From assembly GCA_029859805.1 (NCBI GenBank), contig JAOUCL010000004.1, positions 1-52,812 on the forward strand: 52,812 nucleotides of DNA, read 5' to 3'. Below, piece after piece: positions 20,286-30,789 of this stretch (its first letter is position 1; each line of letters starts with the position of its first letter). Origin of the DNA: Rhodospirillales bacterium (GTDB lineage: Bacteria; Pseudomonadota; Alphaproteobacteria; Kiloniellales; JAKSDN01). The notes beneath the pieces are model-generated. The model saw only the letters and a list, made by a program, of their open reading frames with translations. It ran no database searches and was not told the DNA's origin. The position numbers and the translations under genes were made by a program.

Positions 20286-20813
20286 ATGACGGACGAGGCG
20301 ATAACGGAGGACCTCGGCGAAGGCGTCGAGGTCGAGGCCAAGCCGCGCGAGGGCGGCATGAGCGGCAAGAAGCTCGTGCTGTTCATCCTCCTGCCGCTTG
20401 TTCTGGTTCTGGGCGGAGCCACTGGCGCCTATGTTGCCGGGGCCCTCGACCCTTTGCTCGGCACGGCTGAAGACCAGGAGGAAGCGGCGGCTCAAGGCAA
20501 GGCGGCGCCAGCCGTGTTCTATGATCTGCCGGAAATGCTGGTGAATCTCAACGGCGGGGGGCGCAAGGCCTCCTATCTGAAGATCTCCGTCAGCCTCGAG
20601 CTCGAGGACGCCGGCACCTTGGAATATGTCGATCAGGTGCTCCCGCGCATAGTGGATAACTTCCAGGTCTATCTGCGCGAGCTGCGGATCGAGGACCTCA
20701 ACGGCTCGGCGGGTCTGCAGCGGCTGCGCGAGGAACTGCTGCTGCGGGTCAATGCGGCAACGCAGCCGGCCGTCGTCAAGGACGTGCTCTTCAAGGAAAT
20801 GTTGATTCAATAA
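20286..20813 (+). CDS. fliL: Flagellar basal body-associated protein FliL
   Basis: A 175-residue single-pass inner-membrane protein around the stator units. After a short acidic cytoplasmic tail comes a membrane segment (KLVLFILLPLVLVLGGATGAYVAGALDPLL). The periplasmic FliL domain follows, with VFYDLPEMLVNLNGGGRKASYLKISVSLELED, VLPRIVDNFQVYLRELRIEDLNGSAGLQRLREELLLRVNAA and VLFKEMLIQ. It heads the plus-strand motor/chemotaxis operon, 24 bases before fliM. Confidence 0.95.
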   Translation: MTDEAITEDLGEGVEVEAKPREGGMSGKKLVLFILLPLVLVLGGATGAYVAGALDPLLGTAEDQEEAAAQGKAAPAVFYDLPEMLVNLNGGGRKASYLKISVSLELEDAGTLEYVDQVLPRIVDNFQVYLRELRIEDLNGSAGLQRLREELLLRVNAATQPAVVKDVLFKEMLIQ

Positions 20814-20837: not shown

Positions 20838-21959
20838 ATGGCGGATCTGACGGAAGACGGAGCGACTCCGGCCGAGGGCGGCGACGAGGACCAGGCGGCC
20901 CTTATGGCGGAATGGGAGGCCGTGGCCGCTGAAGACGGCGAAGCGGGGGGCGGGCAGGGGGAGCAGGACGTCGGCCAGATGGGCGGGTCGTCCACGCGCG
21001 TCCTCGACCAGTCCGAGATCGACAGCCTGATGGGCGTCGACGGGGGCACTGCTGACGACGGCGACCAGTCGGGTATCAAGGCGATCGTCAATTCGGCGCT
21101 GGTATCCTACGAGCGTTTGCCGATGCTCGAGGTCGTGTTCGATCGGCTGGTGCGCATGATGTCGACCTCCTTGCGCAACTTCACCTCGGATAACGTGGAG
21201 GTCAGCCTGGAGTCGATCACCTCCTGGCGCTTCGGCGACTACCTCAATTCGATTCCCTTGCCCGCCATGCTGACCGTGTTCAAGGCCGAGGAGTGGGACA
21301 ACTTCGGCCTGATGACGGTCGACAGCTCGCTGATCTATTCGATCGTCGACGTGCTCCTGGGCGGCCGCCGCGGCACGGCGGCCATGCGCATCGAGGGGCG
21401 GCCCTACACGACGATCGAGCGCAACCTCGTGGAGCGCATGGTGCACGTCGTTCTCGGCGACCTCTCGGCTGCCTTCGATCCCTTGTCGCCGGTCAGCTTC
21501 CGCTTCGAGCGGCTGGAGTCCAATCCCCGTTTCGCGACCATCGCGCGGCCGGCGAACGCCACGATCGTGGCCAAGCTGCGCGTCGACATGGAGGACCGCG
21601 GCGGACGGATCGAATTGACGTTGCCCTATGCCACCTTGGAACCGGTCCGCGAACTCCTGTTGCAGATGTTCATCGGCGAGAAGTTCGGACGCGATTCGAT
21701 TTGGGAGGGCCATCTGACTGCCGAGCTCTGGCAGACCGATGTGGCGATCCAGGCCGTGCTGGAGGAGGTCGAGCTGCGCCTCAGCGACGTGCTTTCCTGG
21801 ACCGAGGGTACGCGCCTCGAACTCAACTGCGATCCCTCCTCCAAGATCCAGTTGCGCTGCGGCGAGGTCGCCATGTTCGACGGACAGATGGGCCGCAGCG
21901 GTTCGAACATAGCCGTGCGCATCGCCAACAAGCTGGTAATCAGTGAGGAAATGAATTGA
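20838..21959 (+). CDS. fliM: Flagellar motor switch protein FliM
   Basis: A 373-residue C-ring protein. The family core begins VLDQSEIDSLMG (residues about 54-66) and continues with the CheC-like middle domain (MLEVVFDRLVRMMSTSLRNFTSDNVEVSLESITSWRFGDYLNSIP, then YSIVDVLLGGRRG) and the C-terminal SpoA domain (LNCDPSSKIQLRCGEVAMFDGQMGRSGSNIAVRI). The first 50 residues are acidic and poorly conserved, and the usual short CheY-binding peptide is not obvious there. The stop overlaps the next gene's TTG by four bases (TTGA). Confidence 0.96.
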   Translation: MADLTEDGATPAEGGDEDQAALMAEWEAVAAEDGEAGGGQGEQDVGQMGGSSTRVLDQSEIDSLMGVDGGTADDGDQSGIKAIVNSALVSYERLPMLEVVFDRLVRMMSTSLRNFTSDNVEVSLESITSWRFGDYLNSIPLPAMLTVFKAEEWDNFGLMTVDSSLIYSIVDVLLGGRRGTAAMRIEGRPYTTIERNLVERMVHVVLGDLSAAFDPLSPVSFRFERLESNPRFATIARPANATIVAKLRVDMEDRGGRIELTLPYATLEPVRELLLQMFIGEKFGRDSIWEGHLTAELWQTDVAIQAVLEEVELRLSDVLSWTEGTRLELNCDPSSKIQLRCGEVAMFDGQMGRSGSNIAVRIANKLVISEEMN

Positions 21960-22483
21960 TCGGCGAAATTCCGCTGGACCGTATGGTTCTGCTGTTCGAC
22001 GCGGTGGTGGCTTTGCTGCTGCTGGCAACCATCGTCTACGCCGCGATCCTCAACCGAAAATTGTCGGCCCTGCGCGACTCCAGGCAGGAGATGGAAGAGC
22101 TGATCGGCCGCTTCGCCGAGGCAACGACGAAGGCCGAGACGGTGCTTGCGGACATTCGACAATCGGCGGGCGAGACCGGGCGGACCCTGCAAGAGGCGAT
22201 CGACCGCGGCAACGTCGTGGCCGACGACCTGGTGTTTCTGGTCGAGCGCGCCGGCAGCGTTGCCGATCGGCTGGAAGGCGCCGTCAAGGCCAAGCCCGCG
22301 GCGCGGCGGACGGACGAACTGGCCAATGGTCAACTTGGCGCCCAGGGGGTCGTTGTCCGCCACCGTGGCGACGCCGCGTCCGACGGCATCGCGGCCCCGC
22401 CACCGGACGCCGCCGGCCAGGCACGCGTCGAGGCGACTCCGAAGCAATCCGCCTTCATGAAGTCCCTGCGCGGCATGCGCTGA
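21956..22483 (+). CDS. DUF6468-like membrane-anchored flagellar operon protein
   Basis: A 175-residue protein with one N-terminal membrane segment (VLLFDAVVALLLLATIVYAAILNRKL) and a following coiled coil (LRDSRQEMEELIGRFAEATTKAETVLADIRQSAGETGRTLQEAIDRGNVVADDLVFLVERAGSVADRLE). From memory this layout and position match the DUF6468 proteins in Rhodospirillales flagellar operons; function is unknown. The TTG at 21956 overlaps the fliM stop (TTGA), implying coupled translation, and motE follows after 27 bases. Confidence 0.75.
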   Translation: MIGEIPLDRMVLLFDAVVALLLLATIVYAAILNRKLSALRDSRQEMEELIGRFAEATTKAETVLADIRQSAGETGRTLQEAIDRGNVVADDLVFLVERAGSVADRLEGAVKAKPAARRTDELANGQLGAQGVVVRHRGDAASDGIAAPPPDAAGQARVEATPKQSAFMKSLRGMR

Positions 22484-22510: not shown

Positions 22511-23203
22511 ATGCGATTGCGCTTGTTTCCGCTTCTGATCGTGCTCGCCACAGTCGGCGTCGCACTCAAGGCGGGTGGCATCTGGCACGGCCTCGACACC
22601 TTCGCCCAGGCCAAGCCGGCGGCCGCCGGCAACCGGTCCCCGGATTTCGCGTCCGCCTCGCCGGTCCAGGTGGCCGAACGCGGCCCGGCTTCCGGCGCGC
22701 GGCCGAATCCGGAGTCCGGGCCGGCCGAGAGCGTGGCCGGCGAGGGCCCGTCCGCCACCGCTGACCTGCCGAGCGATCCCTTCCAACTGACCGACGAAGA
22801 GATCGATCTTTTGCAGATGCTCGCCGAACGCCGCACCGAGATCGACCGCCGGGAGGCCGAGCTCGATCAGCGAGGCACTCTGCTCGAAGCAGCCGAACGG
22901 CGCATAGACGAGAAGATCGGCGAGTTGGAAAGCCTCCAGAAGACCATCGAGGAGCTTCTGATCCAGCGCGACGAGCAGGAAGAGACGCAGCTCAACAGCC
23001 TCGTGAAGATCTACGAGAACATGAAGCCAAAGGACGCGGCACGGATCTTCGAGGAACTCGACATGGCCGTCCTGCTCGACGTGATCGAGCGCATGAAGGA
23101 ACGCAAGACGGCACCGATCCTGGCGCGCATGAACCCGCGGCGGGCCAAGGCGATCACCATCGAACTGGCCCAGCGCCGCGGCCTGCCGGCTGCGCCGAAC
23201 TAG
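22511..23203 (+). CDS. motE: MotE-family flagellar protein
   Basis: A 230-residue exported or membrane-anchored protein. An N-terminal hydrophobic segment (LFPLLIVLATVGVALKAGGIW) is followed by a low-complexity Pro/Ala linker (residues 35-90). A coiled coil comes next (LLQMLAERRTEIDRREAELDQRGTLLEAAERRIDEKIGELESLQKTIEELLIQRDEQEE), then the MgtE-N-like end YENMKPKDAARIFEELDMAVLLDVIERMKERKTAPILARMNPRRAKAITIELAQ. In Sinorhizobium, MotE is a chaperone for the periplasmic motor protein MotC. Here the candidate client is the exported TPR protein at 25837-28830; that link is inference. Confidence 0.85.
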   Translation: MRLRLFPLLIVLATVGVALKAGGIWHGLDTFAQAKPAAAGNRSPDFASASPVQVAERGPASGARPNPESGPAESVAGEGPSATADLPSDPFQLTDEEIDLLQMLAERRTEIDRREAELDQRGTLLEAAERRIDEKIGELESLQKTIEELLIQRDEQEETQLNSLVKIYENMKPKDAARIFEELDMAVLLDVIERMKERKTAPILARMNPRRAKAITIELAQRRGLPAAPN

Positions 23204-23348
23204 CTGATGGGGTAGGAGTTTCCTGGCCTCACGATTTACTCGGTTTTAACTAACATAAACTAGTTATTTGGTCGGAGACGGAAAGTGCCAGAGCTTGGGC
23301 GGGCCGGCAGAAATCCGCCATGTCGGCCCGTTATGTCAGGAGATGCCG

Positions 23349-23738
23349 ATGTCAGCAATCGACATGAAAACGCCGATCCTCATCGTGGACGACTATAAGA
23401 CCATGCTGAGGATCATCCGGAACCTGCTGAAACAACTGGGTTTCGACAATGTGGACGAAGCCACCGACGGCAGCACGGCCCTGCAGAAGCTGCGTGAAAA
23501 GGCTTACGGATTGGTCATTTCGGACTGGAACATGGAGCCGATGACCGGCCTCGAGCTTCTGAAGGAAGTCCGGGCGGACACGCAGCTCAAGGAGCTGCCC
23601 TTCATCATGATCACCGCGGAGAGCAAGAGCGAGAACGTGGTTGCCGCCAAGCAGGCCGGCGTCAGCAATTACATCGTCAAGCCGTTCAACGCGGACACCT
23701 TGAAGACCAAGCTGACGGCTGTCGTCGGCGACTTCTAA
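23349..23738 (+). CDS. cheY: CheY-type response regulator
   Basis: A 129-residue single-domain receiver. It has the acidic pocket (ILIVDDYKTMLRIIRNLL), the phospho-accepting aspartate in VISDWNMEPMTGLELL, the switch Thr/Ser in PFIMITAES and the conserved lysine in NYIVKPFNADTL. The ATG at 23349 has AGGAG six bases upstream; the open frame extends to 23268 but without a better start. The direct neighbour is cheZ, so it most likely binds the motor switch. Confidence 0.93.
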   Translation: MSAIDMKTPILIVDDYKTMLRIIRNLLKQLGFDNVDEATDGSTALQKLREKAYGLVISDWNMEPMTGLELLKEVRADTQLKELPFIMITAESKSENVVAAKQAGVSNYIVKPFNADTLKTKLTAVVGDF

Positions 23739-23771: not shown

Positions 23772-24416
23772 ATGTCAGCCCGTTTCGACGAAAAAGACAT
23801 CGGCAAGCGTGTCGAAGCCATTGCGAAGCGCGGTGACGGAGTCGAGCCCGAGCAGATCCTGGAAGTGGTGGAAAGCGTGATGGCATCGATCGACGGGGAC
23901 CTTTCGACCGTCAATCTGAAATTTTACGCCGAGATCGAATCGCTCGCCAAGTTCATCGAGAACCTCAAGCTGGAGTTGGCCGCGGTCAGGCCGGACGAGA
24001 TCAACGACGAACACCTCCCGGCGGCGGCCGACGAGCTGGAGGCCATCGTCGGCGCCACCGAGCAGGCGACCAACACCATCTTCGAGGCCGTCGAGGCGAT
24101 CGAGGAGCTGACCGCCAAGATGAACAAGAAGGTGGCGCCGAAGGTGTCGGACGCCGTGACACGGGTCTACGAGGCCTGTGGTTTCCAGGACATCACCGGA
24201 CAGCGCATCACCAAGGTCGTGACCGCGCTCAAGCACATAGAGAATAAGGTCGAGGCGTTGCTGGCGGCCTTCGGCGAGGAAATCCGGCAGCTGCCCGGCC
24301 AGGAGCGACCCGACAACCCGGAGCCACCGGACGGCAGCGTAATGCACGGTCCCCAGCTGGAAAGGGACGCCAACAGCCAGGACGACATCGACGCCATTCT
24401 GGCGGGCCTCGACTGA
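23772..24416 (+). CDS. cheZ: CheZ-family CheY-P phosphatase
   Basis: A 214-residue helical protein with the CheZ core EATEQ-like stretch IVGATEQATNTIFEAVEAIEELTAKM and the catalytic-helix motif VTRVYEACGFQDITGQRITKVVTALKHIENKVEALLAAFGEE, where the Q of FQDITGQ corresponds to the catalytic glutamine of CheZ. The C-terminus DDIDAILAGLD resembles the CheY-binding tail. It lies 33 bases after cheY. Confidence 0.9.
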   Translation: MSARFDEKDIGKRVEAIAKRGDGVEPEQILEVVESVMASIDGDLSTVNLKFYAEIESLAKFIENLKLELAAVRPDEINDEHLPAAADELEAIVGATEQATNTIFEAVEAIEELTAKMNKKVAPKVSDAVTRVYEACGFQDITGQRITKVVTALKHIENKVEALLAAFGEEIRQLPGQERPDNPEPPDGSVMHGPQLERDANSQDDIDAILAGLD

Positions 24417-24422
24417 GCCGCC

Positions 24423-25109
24423 ATGGCCGACGCAGGGCAGCCGGGCAGCCGGCGCGGCGATCCGAATATCGTCGCGCTGCTCAGCCTCAAGCTCCTGCTG
24501 CTGGGTTTCTTCATCTTGCTGAACGCGCTTTCCCAATACGAGGAGGATAGGGCCCGAAAGGTCCTCGAGAGCGTCAACGAGGCCTTCAACGGCCGGGTCG
24601 ATGCGCTCGAGAGCCACGCATCCTATCCCGCGGGACTGGGGCCGTTCGAGGAGACCGCCGCGATGATCGGCTCGGTCGGCCGCCTGTTTCGCTCGCAGAT
24701 TCCCGCCGTGCGCAGCGAGGTCTCGGCCGGCGGCGCGCGTCTGCGCCTGGAATTGCCCGCCGAAACCCTTTTCCAACCCGCCGCGGCCAAGCTGCGGCCT
24801 GGGCACGACCTGTTGTTGCGCCGGTTCGCCGGGGCACTGACCGATGACGGCCGGGTCGGCCTGGACTACGAGGTCGAGCTGTTGCACGGCGTCCCTGCCG
24901 GGGACACGGCCAGGCTTGCCGCCGCTCCGGCCGAGGCCGTCGAGGTCGGACGCATGGGCGCCCTGGCGCGCGCCTTCGCGCGGCGCGGCGTGCCGGTGGA
25001 AAAGCTGTCGATCGGTACGTTGCCGGGCCGGCCCGGCAAGGTCGTTCTGGTGGTCCAGGTCTACGACGCGCGGCTTCGGGCTCCCGACTATCTGGGGTTC
25101 GCGGAGTGA
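24423..25109 (+). CDS. MotB-like stator or stator-accessory protein with degenerate OmpA region
   Basis: A 228-residue protein with one N-terminal membrane segment (NIVALLSLKLLLLGFFILLNALSQYEEDRARKVLESVNEAF). A periplasmic part follows that has the beginning of an OmpA/MotB-like fold (GARLRLELPAETLFQPAAAKLRPGHDLLLRRFAGAL), but the peptidoglycan-binding N-x-x-L-S-x-x-R-A motif is not visible. The channel aspartate of MotB is not apparent in the membrane segment. It therefore looks like a MotB paralog that has lost proton-channel or wall-binding function. It starts six bases after cheZ and overlaps the next MotB gene by four bases (GTGA). Confidence 0.65.
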   Translation: MADAGQPGSRRGDPNIVALLSLKLLLLGFFILLNALSQYEEDRARKVLESVNEAFNGRVDALESHASYPAGLGPFEETAAMIGSVGRLFRSQIPAVRSEVSAGGARLRLELPAETLFQPAAAKLRPGHDLLLRRFAGALTDDGRVGLDYEVELLHGVPAGDTARLAAAPAEAVEVGRMGALARAFARRGVPVEKLSIGTLPGRPGKVVLVVQVYDARLRAPDYLGFAE

Positions 25110-25840
25110 CCGGGCCCGCGAGCACCGCCCCGGACGGGGTCGAGGCTTCGGGCCGGCCGCCGGCCGGGGGAACGGCCTGGCTGATCACCTTCACCGACCT
25201 GGTCGCTCTGATGTTGACCTTCTTCGTCATGCTCTTCGCCATGTCCAAGGTCGAGCATCGCAAGTGGCAGAACCTGACCGACGCGCTGGCCTACAATCTG
25301 AACGCCGTGCGCGAGCTTCCGGCGGCGCTGCCGACCGAGTGGCTCGACATCGAGAGCGACGAGCCGCTTTCCGCGGTCGATCTCGACTATCTCGCCGCGC
25401 TGCTCAAGGAGAACATCGCGGCCGAGCCGCTGCTGGCGGAGGCCGTGCTGTGGCGTCTCCAGGACCATCTGGTGATCGCGCTGCCGGGCGAGCTCCTGTT
25501 CGCCCCCGGGGCGACCGAGCTGGAGCCCTCCGGACGCGCTGTGCTTGCCGCCTTCGGCGGCCTGTTGCGCCACGTGACCAACCGGATCGAGGTGACGGCC
25601 CATGCCGACCCGCGCAAACCGGGCGGTGGCTTCGCTTCGAACTGGGAGCTGTCCCTGGCCCGCGCGCTCGGCGTCGCCCAAATTCTGGAACAGACCGGCA
25701 GCCATGGCCCGGTCGTGGCGCGCGGGCTGGGCGACGGCCGCTTCGAGGCCCTCTCAGCGCAGCTCGCCCCGGCGCGCCGCCTGGCGCTCGCGCGGCGGGT
25801 CGAGATCCTCGTGCGCAGCGCCGCGGGAGAGCAGCCGTGA
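25106..25840 (+). CDS. motB: Flagellar motor protein MotB
   Basis: A 244-residue stator protein. The single membrane segment WLITFTDLVALMLTFFVMLFAMS carries an aspartate (FTD) at the position of the proton-binding Asp of MotB. The C-terminal OmpA-like domain has LLFAPGATELEPSGRAVLAAFGGLL, IEVTAHADPRK and SNWELSLARALGVAQIL, the MotB-type peptidoglycan-binding motif. The GTG start overlaps the preceding stop. No motA gene is present in the window, so its partner must be encoded elsewhere. Confidence 0.85.
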   Translation: MTGPASTAPDGVEASGRPPAGGTAWLITFTDLVALMLTFFVMLFAMSKVEHRKWQNLTDALAYNLNAVRELPAALPTEWLDIESDEPLSAVDLDYLAALLKENIAAEPLLAEAVLWRLQDHLVIALPGELLFAPGATELEPSGRAVLAAFGGLLRHVTNRIEVTAHADPRKPGGGFASNWELSLARALGVAQILEQTGSHGPVVARGLGDGRFEALSAQLAPARRLALARRVEILVRSAAGEQP

Positions 25841-28830
25841 CCCGCGGCGGGCCTTGGTCACGGGCGTCCATTTACGGGCTCTTGCTGGCCGCCGCGGTGG
25901 ACTTCGCGTCGCCCGCCGCGGCAGCGGCCGGCGCGGCGGTCACCGAGGTGCCCGTCAGAACCGGCGTACACGACGGCTACAGTCGGCTGGTCTTCGACTG
26001 GGACGCACCGGTCGCCTACCGGCTGGAGCAGGCGCCCGGCCGCGCCGTGCTCTATTTCAGCCGTCCGGCCCGGCTCGACCTGTCGCGCTTCCGCGCCGAC
26101 CCGGGCAGGCTAATCCCGGCCCTGACGATGAAACCCGTGGCCGAGGGCTCGGCGGTGGAGCTGTCGCTGCCGCCCGGAGTCTCGCTGCGCCATTTTATGA
26201 GCGACTCGAAAGTGGTGGTCGACGTCCTGGCGCCGCGCCGCGTGGCGTCCCGGGACCTCGACGCGATCGCCGCCGATGCCGTTCTGGCCGCGACCGTGGC
26301 GAGGCAGGTTCCCGAAACAGCGCGCGCCGCGCGTCGGCTGCCGACCCGGCTCGACCCGGAGCCCGGGGCCCCAGAGCCGCGGAGCGCGCAAGCGCGCCGG
26401 CCGAAAACCCGGTCCAAGGCGCGGGCCGCGTCGGGCTCGAAGATCGCTATTGCCTTCGAACGACCCTCCCTGCCGCCCTGGAGCCCGGCGCCGGGGGCCA
26501 GCGCGCCGCGCACCCGGCCGCTTACGCTCCGCGTGACCGGGGCGCCGGACGCCGCTGCCGCCGCGTTTCGGCGCGGGCGCAGCCTGTGGCTGGTTTTCGA
26601 CCGGCCGGCGCGGGCGGACATCGCCAAGCGCCTGGCAAAGTTCGCGCCGGAGCTGATGCCTGTCGAGCAGCGGGCGCTCGAGGGCGCCACGCTGCTCCGC
26701 CTGACCGCGCCCGCCGATCTGGCGCCGGCGCTGCGGCGCGAGGAGGGCGGCTGGATCGTCGAACTGCGCCCGCAGCTCGCCCGCCCCGAGGTCTCGGTCG
26801 AGCCGGAGGTGCGCGCCGGCGGTCCGCAACCAGGGGTCCGGTTTCCGGTCGCGGGCGCCGGGCGGGTCGTTTCTCTCGACGATCCGGATCTGGGTGGCCG
26901 GATCCATGTCCTGCCGGTCGTCGCGCCCGGTCTCGGCTTGCTCGCCGCCCGCGAGTTCCCGCAGTTCCGGGCGCTCGCCACCTATCAGGGCCTCGCCGTG
27001 GCGCCCCGTTCCGATCGCATCCGCGTGGCGCGGGACGAGACCGGCTTCGAGGTGACGAGCAGCGGGGACCTGCTGGTCACGCCGCGGACCGCCGCGCGAC
27101 AGGACCCGACGGCTGCGGCCCTGACGGAACATGGCCGACGGCTTTTCGAGCTGCCGGCCTGGCGTCTGGGCGATGACGTGCTGTTCGAACGGAACCGGCG
27201 TGTGCTGCAGCGCCGGTTGGTTACGCCGGGCCCCGGACAGCGCCCGGAGGTCGCCCGCCTCGACCTGGGGCGCTTCTACTTCGCCCACGGCTTGGCCAGC
27301 GAGGCGCTTTCGGAGCTCAACCTGATGGCCCGGGACAACCCGGAGCTCGCCCGGGACCCCCAGGTGATCCTGTTGCGCGCGGCGAGCCTTTTCCTGGTTC
27401 AGGATTACCGGGCGGTGGCCGACGGGCTCGCGGAACCGGCCCTGGCCGGCGAGCCCGAGGCGCTGGTCTGGCGCGCGGCCCAGGCCGCCGCCGCCCAAGA
27501 CTGGGCCTATGCCGCGGAAGTGTTCGACCAGACGGGCCCGCTCCTGGCGGACTACATCCACCCGGTGCGCACCCGGCTGTGGCTGCTGGCCGCGGAATCG
27601 CACCTGGCCGTCGGCGATACCGGCGGTGCCAGCCTCTACCTGGAACAGGTGCGCGAGGACGCGCCCGCGGCCTTCGAGCAGGCCCAGCTCGACTTCCTCG
27701 AGGGCCGGCGCCTGTTGCTCGACGGCGAAACCGAGACGGCCGAGGCCCTGTGGCGCAGGGTCGCCGGCGCCACGCACGCGCCGTCGCGCGCGCGCGCGCG
27801 GCTGGCCCTGGTCGACCTGGGCCTCGAGACCGGTGGGCTCGACACCGCCGCGGCGATCGAGGAGCTCGAGCGGCTGCGCTTTCTTTGGCGGGCCGACGAC
27901 TTCGAGTTGGCCCTGCTCGAGCGGCTGGGCGGGCTCTACGCCGCCGCGCGGGACTACCGCCAGGCGCTGCACAGCCTGCGTCAGGCGGCCTCCCATTTTC
28001 CGGGTTCGCCGCGCGCCAAGGCGGTGGCCCGGAAAATGCGCGAGATCTTCGCCGGGCTGTACCTCGAGGGCGGCGACAGGACGCTGCCGCCGGTCCGCGC
28101 GCTGGCGCTCTACGAGGAGTTCAAGGAGTTGACGCCGGTCGGCCCGGCCGGTGACCGGATGATCGCGAATCTGGTCGAACAGCTCGTCGAGATCGATCTG
28201 CTGGGCCGCGCGGCGACGCTGTTGGAAGACCAGATCGCACAGCGCCTGAAGGGTGCGGACCGGGCCCGCGGCGGGGCCCGGCTGGCGCTCGTCCGCCTGC
28301 TCGACCGGCAGCCCGAGCAGGCGCTGGACGCGCTTGCCGGGACCGCGTGGAAGCAGCTGCCCGAGGACCTCCGGCGCCGGCGCCGGCTGCTCGAGGCGCG
28401 GGCGTTGGGCGACCTTGGCCGCGGGCGCGAGGCGCTCGGTCTGCTGGCCGGTGACGAGAGCGAGGAGGGCCTGCGCCTGCGCGCCGGGATCCTCTGGGAG
28501 CTGCGCGATTGGCCCGCCGCCGCGGTGGCGCTTTCGCGCCTGGTGCCCAAGAAACCGCCCGCCGGAGGGGCACAGGGCGAGGCCGAGGACCAGACCGTCC
28601 TGGACCTGGCGGTCGCCTACAGCCTGGCCGGCGACCGCAAGGCGCTCAGCGACCTCAAGCAGCGTTACGGCCCGGCCATGGCGGCCGGCTCCAGGGCCGA
28701 GAGCTTCGCGCTCCTGACCAGCGACTTCCGCAAGGCCGAGATCACCAAGGTCGCCCAGGAGCTGGCCGGGGTCGAGCGCATCCAGGCCTTCATGGCCGGC
28801 TACCGCGCGCTCAGCCGGGGCACGCCGTGA
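25837..28830 (+). CDS. Large exported TPR protein of the motor operon
   Basis: A 997-residue protein I cannot name. It has an N-terminal signal-like segment (IYGLLLAAAVDFASPAAAAAGA) and an AMIN-like beta stretch (VRTGVHDGYSRLVFDWDAPVAYRLEQAPGRAVLYFSRPARLDLSRF). A basic, Pro/Ala-rich linker lies near residues 165-230, and from about residue 450 onward there are many TPR-like helices (for example LGRFYFAHGLASEALSELNLMARDNPEL and YAVAYSLAGDRKAL-type repeats near the end). The GTG at 25837 overlaps the motB stop (GTGA), so it is co-translated with the stator gene. It is probably periplasmic; a MotC-like motor role is inference. The frame stays open upstream of 25837 but there runs through the motB-like genes and is not coding. 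Confidence 0.75.
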   Translation: MTRGGPWSRASIYGLLLAAAVDFASPAAAAAGAAVTEVPVRTGVHDGYSRLVFDWDAPVAYRLEQAPGRAVLYFSRPARLDLSRFRADPGRLIPALTMKPVAEGSAVELSLPPGVSLRHFMSDSKVVVDVLAPRRVASRDLDAIAADAVLAATVARQVPETARAARRLPTRLDPEPGAPEPRSAQARRPKTRSKARAASGSKIAIAFERPSLPPWSPAPGASAPRTRPLTLRVTGAPDAAAAAFRRGRSLWLVFDRPARADIAKRLAKFAPELMPVEQRALEGATLLRLTAPADLAPALRREEGGWIVELRPQLARPEVSVEPEVRAGGPQPGVRFPVAGAGRVVSLDDPDLGGRIHVLPVVAPGLGLLAAREFPQFRALATYQGLAVAPRSDRIRVARDETGFEVTSSGDLLVTPRTAARQDPTAAALTEHGRRLFELPAWRLGDDVLFERNRRVLQRRLVTPGPGQRPEVARLDLGRFYFAHGLASEALSELNLMARDNPELARDPQVILLRAASLFLVQDYRAVADGLAEPALAGEPEALVWRAAQAAAAQDWAYAAEVFDQTGPLLADYIHPVRTRLWLLAAESHLAVGDTGGASLYLEQVREDAPAAFEQAQLDFLEGRRLLLDGETETAEALWRRVAGATHAPSRARARLALVDLGLETGGLDTAAAIEELERLRFLWRADDFELALLERLGGLYAAARDYRQALHSLRQAASHFPGSPRAKAVARKMREIFAGLYLEGGDRTLPPVRALALYEEFKELTPVGPAGDRMIANLVEQLVEIDLLGRAATLLEDQIAQRLKGADRARGGARLALVRLLDRQPEQALDALAGTAWKQLPEDLRRRRRLLEARALGDLGRGREALGLLAGDESEEGLRLRAGILWELRDWPAAAVALSRLVPKKPPAGGAQGEAEDQTVLDLAVAYSLAGDRKALSDLKQRYGPAMAAGSRAESFALLTSDFRKAEITKVAQELAGVERIQAFMAGYRALSRGTP

Positions 28831-28921
28831 CTGCACGCGGCGCGCGGCCGATCGGACGGAACGGGATCACCAAGACCTAGCGGCCCGAGGGCAATCGCAT
28901 CTCGCGGTGTTCGATGGCCAT

Positions 28922-29226: not shown

Positions 29227-30789
29227 TCACGTCCCGGCCAGGTCCTCGCGCAGGGCGCGCTTCAAGGTCTTTCCCGCCGCGCTGCGCGGAAACGCGTCCT
29301 TGATCAAGACGCGGCTGACACGCTGGAATTTCGCCTCGACATTGGCGTTGATCCAGTCCCGCAACGCCTCTTCGTCCGCCGTTTGGTCGTCCTTGAGCAG
29401 GACGGCCGCCACGGGGGTCTCGCCCCATCTGTCGTCCGGAACCCCGAAAACCGCGGCCTCGGCGACGGCCGGATGCTGGACGGCGACCTCCTCGATGTCG
29501 CGGGGATAGACGTTGACGCCGCCCGAGATGATCATGTCCTTCTTGCGGTCCACCAGATAGAGAAAGCCGTCCTCGTCCAGGTAGCCCAGGTCGCCGCTGA
29601 ACAGCCAGCCGTCCTTGACCGCGCTTTCGGTCAGGTCCGGGCGCTTGTAGTAGCCCGGCGTCAGAATCGGGCCCCGGCCGACGATCTCGCCGACCTCGCC
29701 GGGCGGCAGGTCGTTGCCCTCGTCGTCGCAGATCCGCATCTCGAAGAACGGCGTGCAGGCGCCGACCGACCCCGGCTTGCGCTTGAAGTCGGTCTTGTCC
29801 AGGACCGTGACGAAGCCCTCGGTCAGGCCGTAGAGCTCGTGGAAGCGGCCGGGCAGGAGCGCCTCCAGCCGCTGCTTGTGCTCCAGGTGCAGCGGCGCGC
29901 CGAGCGACAGGACCGTCTCGAGCGAGCCCAGCCTCTCCCGCGTCGCCCCGGGGTGGTCGAGCAGCGCGATGATCTGGGCCGGCACCATCATGATGTGCGT
30001 GACCTTCTCGCGCGCGACGGTCTCGACCACCGCGTCGATCTCGAAGCTCTTGTGCAGGACGTAGGTCGCGCCGTTGAAGAAGGTCGGCATGAGCGTCACG
30101 AAGGCGCCGTTGAAGATGATCGCGCCCGTGTGCAGACAGACGCTTTCGGGGGTGAACCGGAACGCCTGCGAGAACAGCATGCAGTACATGGCGCGGACAT
30201 AATGGGTGTGCACGATGCCCTTGGGATCGCCAGTCGTGCCGCTGGAATAGACGATGTCGTACACGTCGTCGTTGCCCAGGCCGGCGTCCGGCGGCTCGCC
30301 GGCGGAGGCCTCGGCGAGGAGCTCGTCGAGACAGCGAAAGCCCTCGCGCGGCTCTGCGCCGGTCACGACGAAGCGCTCGTCCGCGATTTGCCGGAGGTCG
30401 CCGCGCGCGGCGTCGACCAAGGCTGCGTAGGCGGGATCGGCCAGTACCATGCCCGCATCGGCGTCGGCGAGCAGCTTCGCCAGGCCCTTGGCTTGAAGCA
30501 GCGGGCTCATGGGCACGACCACCGCGCCGATCTTGGCGACGGCCCAGTACAAGCCCAGCAGCTCGAGGCAGTTCGGCAACACCGTCGCGACCTTGTCGCC
30601 CTTGCCGATACCGGCGGATAACAGCCCGTTGGCTAGACGATTGACACGCCCGTTGAACGCCTCGTAGCTCAGCCGCTCGCCCTCGAAGACGACGGCGGTA
30701 TGCGCCGGCCGGTACGTAGCGTGCCGAGTTATGAGTGTCCCGATATCCACCCGATCCGATCCGCAAGGCCCCGAGGATCGGCCGATCAT
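29227..30789 (-). CDS. AMP-dependent acyl-CoA synthetase (class I adenylate-forming)
   Basis: A 520-residue fatty or aryl acid-CoA ligase. Core motifs: the P-loop-like [35 protein letters not shown], the [57 protein letters not shown] block and the catalytic lysine region [18 protein letters not shown]. The substrate cannot be read from sequence. The ATG at 30789 gives 13 extra residues before the conserved [24 protein letters not shown] 30750 is an alternative start. It is a single gene, convergent with the motor operon across the REP cluster. Confidence 0.92.

Follow-up and report, generated by a model that had tools for sequence, protein, structure and literature searches.

A MotB paralogue lacking the channel aspartate, a complete MotB and a PflA-type scaffold protein encoded in one alphaproteobacterial motor operon

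The locus

The window, i.e. the whole stretch of 52,812 nucleotides analysed here (contig JAOUCL010000004.1 of a Rhodospirillales bacterium, assembly GCA_029859805.1), contains a flagellar motor operon in which three consecutive genes follow cheZ. The labels mbD, mbF and tprA were coined for them in this analysis, as was motA2 for a PomA-type MotA gene of the same genome. The mbF gene encodes a complete MotB, mbD a MotB paralogue without the channel aspartate (Asp), and tprA a large protein with AMIN-like and TPR-like parts (Table 1). The two MotB-like proteins are a genuine and conserved stator variant that, to judge by the literature searches, is undescribed: among the papers listed by these searches, which covered titles and the starts of abstracts and left most subscription papers outside their coverage, none was seen to describe an Asp-less or heterodimeric MotB; one listed paper deals with MotB-like proteins of a Bacillus motor. 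The pair is more novel than the scaffold, and an earlier note, made from this DNA alone, had built nothing on the Asp-less MotB.

A MotB pair with a single channel aspartate

Two samples were compared. Out of 221 related titled loci found, 80 were kept, 64 of which extended 3 kb or more upstream of tprA. The class-wide set comprised 289 alphaproteobacterial genomes (160 FliM-positive and 129 FliM-negative); its 80 tprA regions were reduced to 79 class loci by leaving G051, which has no tprA frame, uncounted, and one adjacent mbD/mbF pair was taken per locus. For each of mbD and mbF, a single row is common to both samples. Alignment A5 included 63 of 64 relatives and A6 65 of 66, the left-out rows being dropped without a test.

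The channel residue of mbF, Asp31, is an Asp in all 66 related-locus rows and in all 47 class loci. The window protein has both the wall-binding Asp and Arg, which are found in 44 and 64 of the 66 rows, respectively. On sequence grounds it is a channel-competent PomB-type B subunit. The mbD family was aligned with the mbF family by hhalign (98.5%, E 3.2e-15, 190 columns), which placed S21 of mbD opposite D31 of mbF. At this column mbD has S, G or A in 49, 9 and 6 of the 64 related-locus rows and in 30, 12 and 5 of the 47 class loci, and never D or E. The absence of a channel Asp, suspected in the earlier note from a single sequence, is therefore real and conserved (64/64 and 47/47). The whole transmembrane segment, residues 17-35, is free of D and E in 64 of 64 rows, and its mean column entropy is 0.98 bits, against 2.51 bits for the periplasmic part.

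The mbD model, with a mean predicted local distance difference test score (pLDDT) of 80.4, shows a long helix (residues 14-54) comprising the transmembrane segment and a plug-like part, followed by an OmpA-like periplasmic domain. In VIA it was superposed on PomB (3wpw; Z 12.3, root-mean-square deviation (rmsd) 3.5, 130 residues aligned) and on a MotB-like protein of Desulfovibrio (3khn; Z 12.2, rmsd 3.1, 131 residues aligned). A partial MotB_plug match was present in 61 of the 64 mbD rows at E 0.01, the window protein scoring 20.1 bits for a cut-off of 24. The wall-binding motif, which had also been noted as missing, is lost in part: the acid of the H-x-D motif has no conserved counterpart, whereas the OmpA-type Arg is kept in 63 of the 64 rows. 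As judged from these features, mbD is a conserved, channel-dead partner with a MotB fold.

A decaying pseudogene was ruled out by the 63 intact relatives in alignment A5 and by the dN/dS of mbD relative to a sister genome, which at 0.17 was below the values of the four other genes measured; together with the presence of both mbD and mbF in 60 of the 64 loci, this value also speaks against chance. Three mbD matches have one in-frame stop each (G213:C108, G162:C23 and G129:C35), from sequencing error or real loss. An unrooted tree of 63 rows was built from 13 canonical MotB proteins, the window and a random draw of 24 both-gene loci. In it, mbD, mbF and canonical MotB formed three groups (support 100/100, 95/86 and 100/98, respectively), which is compatible with a single old loss of the acid in mbD.

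Distribution of the pair and of motA2

Both mbD and mbF were found in 47 of the 79 class loci and neither in 30; mbF occurred alone in two and mbD alone in none. Loci with the module include those of Terasakiella brassicae and a Kiloniella strain (L138, L082 and L085). Among the 30 loci with neither gene are G047 and G079, with 828 bp and 1427 bp upstream, respectively, and G151, in which tprA has no flagellar neighbours within the stretch. In one mbF-only locus, G169, an mbD match lies ~2.6 kb past the other end of tprA, on the opposite strand. In the other, G117, a divergent frame between cheZ and tprA (L193 7060-8011, minus strand) gives an mbF-model match that falls short of the Asp column. 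This frame has an apparent hydrophobic stretch and an OmpA-like part, with no alignable MotB channel region, and is perhaps a degenerate MotB-type protein. Two genomes with a tprA locus devoid of mbD and mbF, G073 and G297, have mbD-like matches elsewhere and have kept motA2; the pair may move as a unit.

In the genome of the window, motA2 is located on contig C9 (L069 7104-7982, minus strand) between fliN-like and flbD-like genes, followed by flhA-, flhF- and flhG-like genes (cluster names given by eye). Its product is the likely partner of mbF. Among the matches listed, which define the presence sets for both the tprA/FliM and the mbD/motA2 counts, 69 of the 160 FliM-positive genomes have mbD and motA2, 6 only mbD, 4 only motA2 and 81 neither (p 1e-32); the corresponding counts by family are 45, 4, 2 and 51 of 102. 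The MotA encoded beside canonical MotB resembles motA2 only weakly: it matches with E values of 1e-13 to 1e-7 in 8 of 13 loci and gives no match in the other 5, whereas the matches within six motA2 loci are at 1e-75 or better.

In two draft genomes, G119 (97% complete) and G241 (99%), mbF and mbD are the sole MotB_plug proteins at E 0.5. As far as such near-complete drafts show, the module can be the sole flagellar stator. The genome of the window, assembled in 550 contigs, also has no MotB besides mbF and mbD; this was taken as an assembly gap and not used, because a canonical MotB is encoded on a separate contig in the sister genome G001. In the genome of the window, the best PF01618 match (C123) was considered as a MotA and rejected as TolQ-like by its neighbours; the other two PF01618 matches are on contigs C380 and C478.

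The tprA protein and its flagellar association

The AlphaFold model of tprA, computed from 71 aligned sequences (mean pLDDT 85.6), contains two AMIN-like beta domains of high pLDDT (residues 35-131 and 203-312) separated by a linker of mostly low confidence (136-200), a further beta part (324-408) and an alpha-solenoid (439-994). By eye, the N-terminus has an Arg, a hydrophobic stretch and an Ala-rich site, and the model has a helix at residues 7-21 followed by disorder; the protein therefore looks exported. The AMIN-like/TPR architecture proposed in the earlier note is borne out by the model, which has both parts, but not by the Pfam matches of tprA alone, which remain below their cut-offs (AMIN-like 14.9 bits for 27, TPR 18.3 bits for 25). 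Alignment A1, for which 23 of 28 tprA relatives were used (24 members), has the AMIN-like match in 9 members and TPR_19 in 13 at E 0.01. A family profile also matched PilQ weakly (E 0.0048 and 0.023); the first of these matches covers the N-terminal region, which holds AMIN domains. No MotX or MotY family was among the Pfam matches of tprA; MotX and MotY were not compared directly.

Over 76 relatives, 70 of which entered alignment A4, the length of tprA ranges from 831 to 1272 residues, the window copy being among the shortest. Its closest named relative, at 93%, belongs to a Kiloniellales metagenome-assembled genome. In many relatives the first AMIN-like domain is matched a second time, further upstream in the same frame. 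Two sister genomes also encode a small, exported-looking, stand-alone AMIN-like protein of 159-177 residues, 38-42% like the first AMIN-like domain of tprA (L073 6498-6977, minus strand; L067 8435-8968, plus strand), encoded next to genes that by eye look like MATE and TlyA types. The match in the window's own genome (contig C509 8381-8857, minus strand) has an in-frame TGA.

Among 350,542 solved chains, the first-ranked Foldseek match of tprA was chain 9hmf_K of the Campylobacter jejuni motor scaffold (E 1.6e-10, 892 columns), followed by an IFT-A protein (E 1.1e-8). Chain K of 9HMF is probably PflA, from its 773 residues. The global scores are low (template modelling (TM) scores of only 0.17 and 0.21, rmsd 37.8), as expected for hinged parts. 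In VIA, generic TPR proteins were at the top for the solenoid and PflA was absent from the best 50 rows, which counts against a specific likeness. Given this dominance of generic TPR proteins and the low TM scores, the fold match alone would not suffice.

The distribution of tprA is that of a flagellar gene. Its profile matches 159 of the 289 genomes, that of FliM 160 and both 148, so that tprA is found in 148 of 160 FliM-positive but only 11 of 129 FliM-negative genomes (Fisher p 1e-52, kinship ignored). The earlier note had named homologues lying mainly away from flagellar genes as a refutation of its scaffold proposal; the outcome favours the proposal, as 61 of the 64 loci have fliL, fliM or flgF. 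The same note had proposed a periplasmic stator scaffold tied to motE and motB, and this agrees with the presence of motE in 64 of 64 loci and of both mbD and mbF in 60. Four tprA matches were found in plasmid records (27-30% identity), and both of those examined sit in flagellar clusters; a search of the plasmid records with mbD gave no match. On the Azospirillum lipoferum plasmid AZO_p5 (L259), a tprA relative annotated as 'hypothetical protein' directly precedes motA-motB in a flagellar cluster.

By its architecture, gene position and best Foldseek match, tprA is a protein of the PflA/MotK/FssB kind. The scaffold can no longer be called unrecognised, as the earlier note had it: MotK (PMC10954123), CC_2058/FssB (PMC7885107) and PflA already define the kind. 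As a new member of it, tprA exceeds MotK in size and has one more AMIN-like domain. The emphasis which that note put on MotE as a chaperone of MotC is likewise dated, as a review favours a structural E-ring role while stating that direct evidence is lacking (PMC13023049). Like MotK and FssB, the tested alphaproteobacterial examples described below, tprA is very probably a scaffold required for rotation.

Gene order and neighbouring genes

The coordinates of the genes are given in Table 1. In most class loci the order is fliL-fliM-DUF6468-motE-tprA, with cheY, cheZ, mbD and mbF as optional inserts. The DUF6468 protein gene occupies the place of pflI in the order fliL-pflI-motE given in PMC10954123; its identity as PflI is inferred from position only. 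The motE product matched the NCBIfam model of the FlbB collar at 1e-9, which is under the cut-off of that model.

Table 1. Genes and junctions of the motor operon in the window
Feature	Coordinates	Strand	Evidence
fliL	20286..20813	+	Pfam FliL 1.7e-21
fliM	20838..21959	+	Pfam FliM 6.1e-65; NCBIfam fliM_switch above cut-off
DUF6468 protein gene	21956..22483	+	Pfam DUF6468 8.7e-20
motE, E-ring type (MotE/FlgY/FlbB kind)	22511..23203	+	MgtE_N 29.6 bits, cut-off 25.9
cheY-type response regulator, start codon unsure	23268..23738	+	Response_reg 5.1e-30
cheZ	23772..24416	+	CheZ 7.8e-16
mbD, 228 residues, Asp-less MotB paralogue	24423..25109	+	hhalign to mbF family; model
mbF, 244 residues, complete PomB/MotD-type MotB	25106..25840	+	MotB_plug 1.2e-14, OmpA 2.9e-9 (Pfam)
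GTGA overlap mbD/mbF	25106..25109	+	sequence
GTGA overlap mbF/tprA	25837..25840	+	sequence
tprA, 997 residues, GTG start, scaffold	25837..28830	+	model pLDDT 85.6; Foldseek rank 1 9hmf_K
AMP-binding enzyme gene, downstream of tprA	29227-30789	-	Pfam

As the earlier note had it, motE belongs to the operon of mbD, mbF and tprA: it lies upstream on the same strand, with the cheY-type gene and cheZ in between. The GTGA overlaps read there between the genes from cheZ onwards exist at the mbD/mbF and mbF/tprA junctions; between cheZ, which ends at 24416, and mbD, which starts at 24423, there is none. Each of the two junctions is within 20 bp in 62 of the 64 loci. The exact 4-base overlap was found in 30 of the 64 loci for mbD/mbF and in 44 for mbF/tprA, shares that are biased upward because the start codon taken was always the one closest to the preceding stop. 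Where tprA ends, a third GTGA overlap (28827-28880) opens a frame of 17 codons and is probably due to chance. Scanning for promoters and terminators was uninformative (one promoter-like site for 0.5 expected; four terminator-like sites for 5.9 expected).

Possible role of mbD

The odds appear even that the operon encodes a stator module together with its periplasmic mount, the stator being composed of MotA2, mbF and mbD. A function of mbD within the MotA2/mbF stator or attached to it is rather probable, since mbD tracks motA2 and mbF rather than tprA, so that its work is tied to that stator. Moreover, the strictly small residue at the site of the acid suggests a tightly packed helix, as inside the MotA ring. 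A heterodimeric axle of mbD and mbF inside the MotA2 ring is the simplest form of this arrangement, though we hold it with less than even confidence.

Beyond the homology, acid loss, co-occurrence and fold reported above, the following pairing, stoichiometry and docking are proposed. The axle of 5:2 motors is dimeric (PMC9389320). A ring of five MotA2 subunits would enclose an mbF/mbD heterodimer where other motors have a MotB homodimer, and the ion-binding Asp would be on one axle helix only. The mbF subunit would open its plug and grip the wall via its OmpA domain, and mbD, without the usual wall-binding acid, would dock to tprA instead. The tprA solenoid might then reach inward as far as the ring of MotE that encircles the MS ring, with the AMIN-like domains facing the stator or the wall, and the stators would thereby be fixed at the rotor.

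The closest competitor, which we consider unlikely, is that mbD acts as a membrane-anchored adaptor outside the MotA ring, held beside the stator by its MotB-derived transmembrane and plug helix and receiving tprA through its OmpA-like domain, while mbF forms a homodimer. This would agree with the lack of the wall-binding acid in mbD and with the position of tprA one gene downstream in the same operon. It would also agree with the distance correlations over 47 loci, in which mbD correlates best with tprA (partial r 0.83 given fliM). The latter value also fits mbD as the scaffold port of the stator and carries little weight, because the length of tprA inflates its correlations. However, tprA is nearly as widespread as FliM, and motE lies beside most of the tprA genes looked at, whereas mbD follows only motA2 and mbF. 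In addition, the conservation of the mbD transmembrane segment and the strictly small residue at the Asp site exceed what a plain anchor needs.

It is highly improbable that mbD pairs with itself and MotA2 to give non-conducting dummy stators that fill or space rotor positions, or a brake: mbD keeps the MotB plan except for the acids and co-occurs with motA2, but no mbD without mbF was present in the loci examined, and the second complex is an inference only. Just as improbable is a role of mbD as a chaperone-like helper that serves the assembly or plug control of mbF or of the scaffold and is absent from the finished motor. The shared operon with its overlapping reading frames would suit such a role, as would the suppression of the loss of fssA (not fssB), a periplasmic motility factor of Caulobacter, by MotB plug mutations (PMC7885107), but the retained transmembrane segment and OmpA-like fold are more than it needs.

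Several observations weigh against the proposed module. The genetic pattern would be no different if mbF formed a homodimer and mbD stood apart, and the distance correlation of mbD with mbF (partial r 0.68 given fliM) resembles that of mbF with cheZ (0.69). In 4 of the 64 loci tprA and motE occur without mbD and mbF, so that the scaffold works without the pair. Two entries of the mbD set, G083 and G302, probably represent other MotB proteins, and the tree program warned that the long mbD and MotB branches are possibly joined wrongly. As to the module as a main or sole stator, 29 of the 38 genomes in which relatives were sought also have a canonical MotB, so that the main motor may be another one, and the single MotA match in G119 and in G241 is weak support, since the motA2 query misses or scarcely finds canonical MotA.

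Should the stator of MotA2 with mbF and mbD exist as proposed, the axle of this motor unit would be lopsided. Such a pair, natural and conserved yet with one acid, would directly test the need for both acids in stepping, a central question for stators, and would explain how stators attach to PflA-type scaffolds across a large bacterial class. In its widest form, which we consider less likely than not, about half of the flagellated Alphaproteobacteria would have a further stator of MotA2 and an obligate mbF/mbD heterodimer, in which the single-Asp axle would halve the ion steps or rectify rotation and the dead arm would serve as port for the PflA-type scaffold; in some lineages it would be the sole stator. 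The close match between tprA and flagella is also relevant to the composition of the alphaproteobacterial motor, given that a tomography paper on Caulobacter states that no MotXY- or PflAB-like scaffold is present (PMC7534056).

Comparison with known systems

The nearest described relative in kind is MotK of the Fla2 system of Cereibacter sphaeroides, which is periplasmic like tprA, with an AMIN-like N-terminus and a TPR-like C-terminal part, and is also encoded in the motE operon; rotation depends on MotK, which interacts with both MotE and MotB2 (PMC10954123). MotK has 652 residues compared with 997 for tprA, and the likeness is one of description, not of sequence. In Cereibacter motK follows motA2, and no MotB pair is described for its operon (PMC10954123). 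Its authors call CC_2058 of Caulobacter crescentus, named FssB, a distant structural homologue of MotK (PMC10954123). FssB is an exported TPR protein encoded, like tprA, near a MotE homologue, CC_2059 (PMC7885107, PMC11870540), and fssB mutants have filaments and are non-motile like motB mutants (PMC7885107). Whereas fssB directly adjoins the motE gene, the cheY-type gene, cheZ, mbD and mbF lie between motE and tprA; here too, the proteins are likened by description and not by sequence. A 2025 preprint (PMC11870540) and a 2026 review (PMC13023049) place CC_2058, MotK and MotC in one group with the spirochaete Flc proteins and PflA/PflB, and assign MotE, together with FlgY and FlbB, to the E-ring.

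PflA of C. jejuni (PDB 9HMF) has the same order of parts as tprA, i.e. a beta-sandwich, an unstructured linker and a TPR superhelix (PMC12222027), although it belongs to a far phylum and has one N-terminal beta-sandwich instead of two AMIN-like domains. It acts together with PflB. MotC of Sinorhizobium is a periplasmic stator helper with TPR and, unlike tprA, without an AMIN domain (PMC13023049). The MotX/MotY T-ring of Vibrio likewise consists of periplasmic stator helpers.

With its plug, channel Asp and OmpA domain, mbF resembles the B subunits PomB, MotD and MotS, whereas mbD has their plan and fold without the channel acid or a conserved wall-binding acid. In the known 5:2 ion motors (Mot, Pom, Exb, Tol and Gld), the axle is formed by two like helices with one acid each, its two B subunits being alike.

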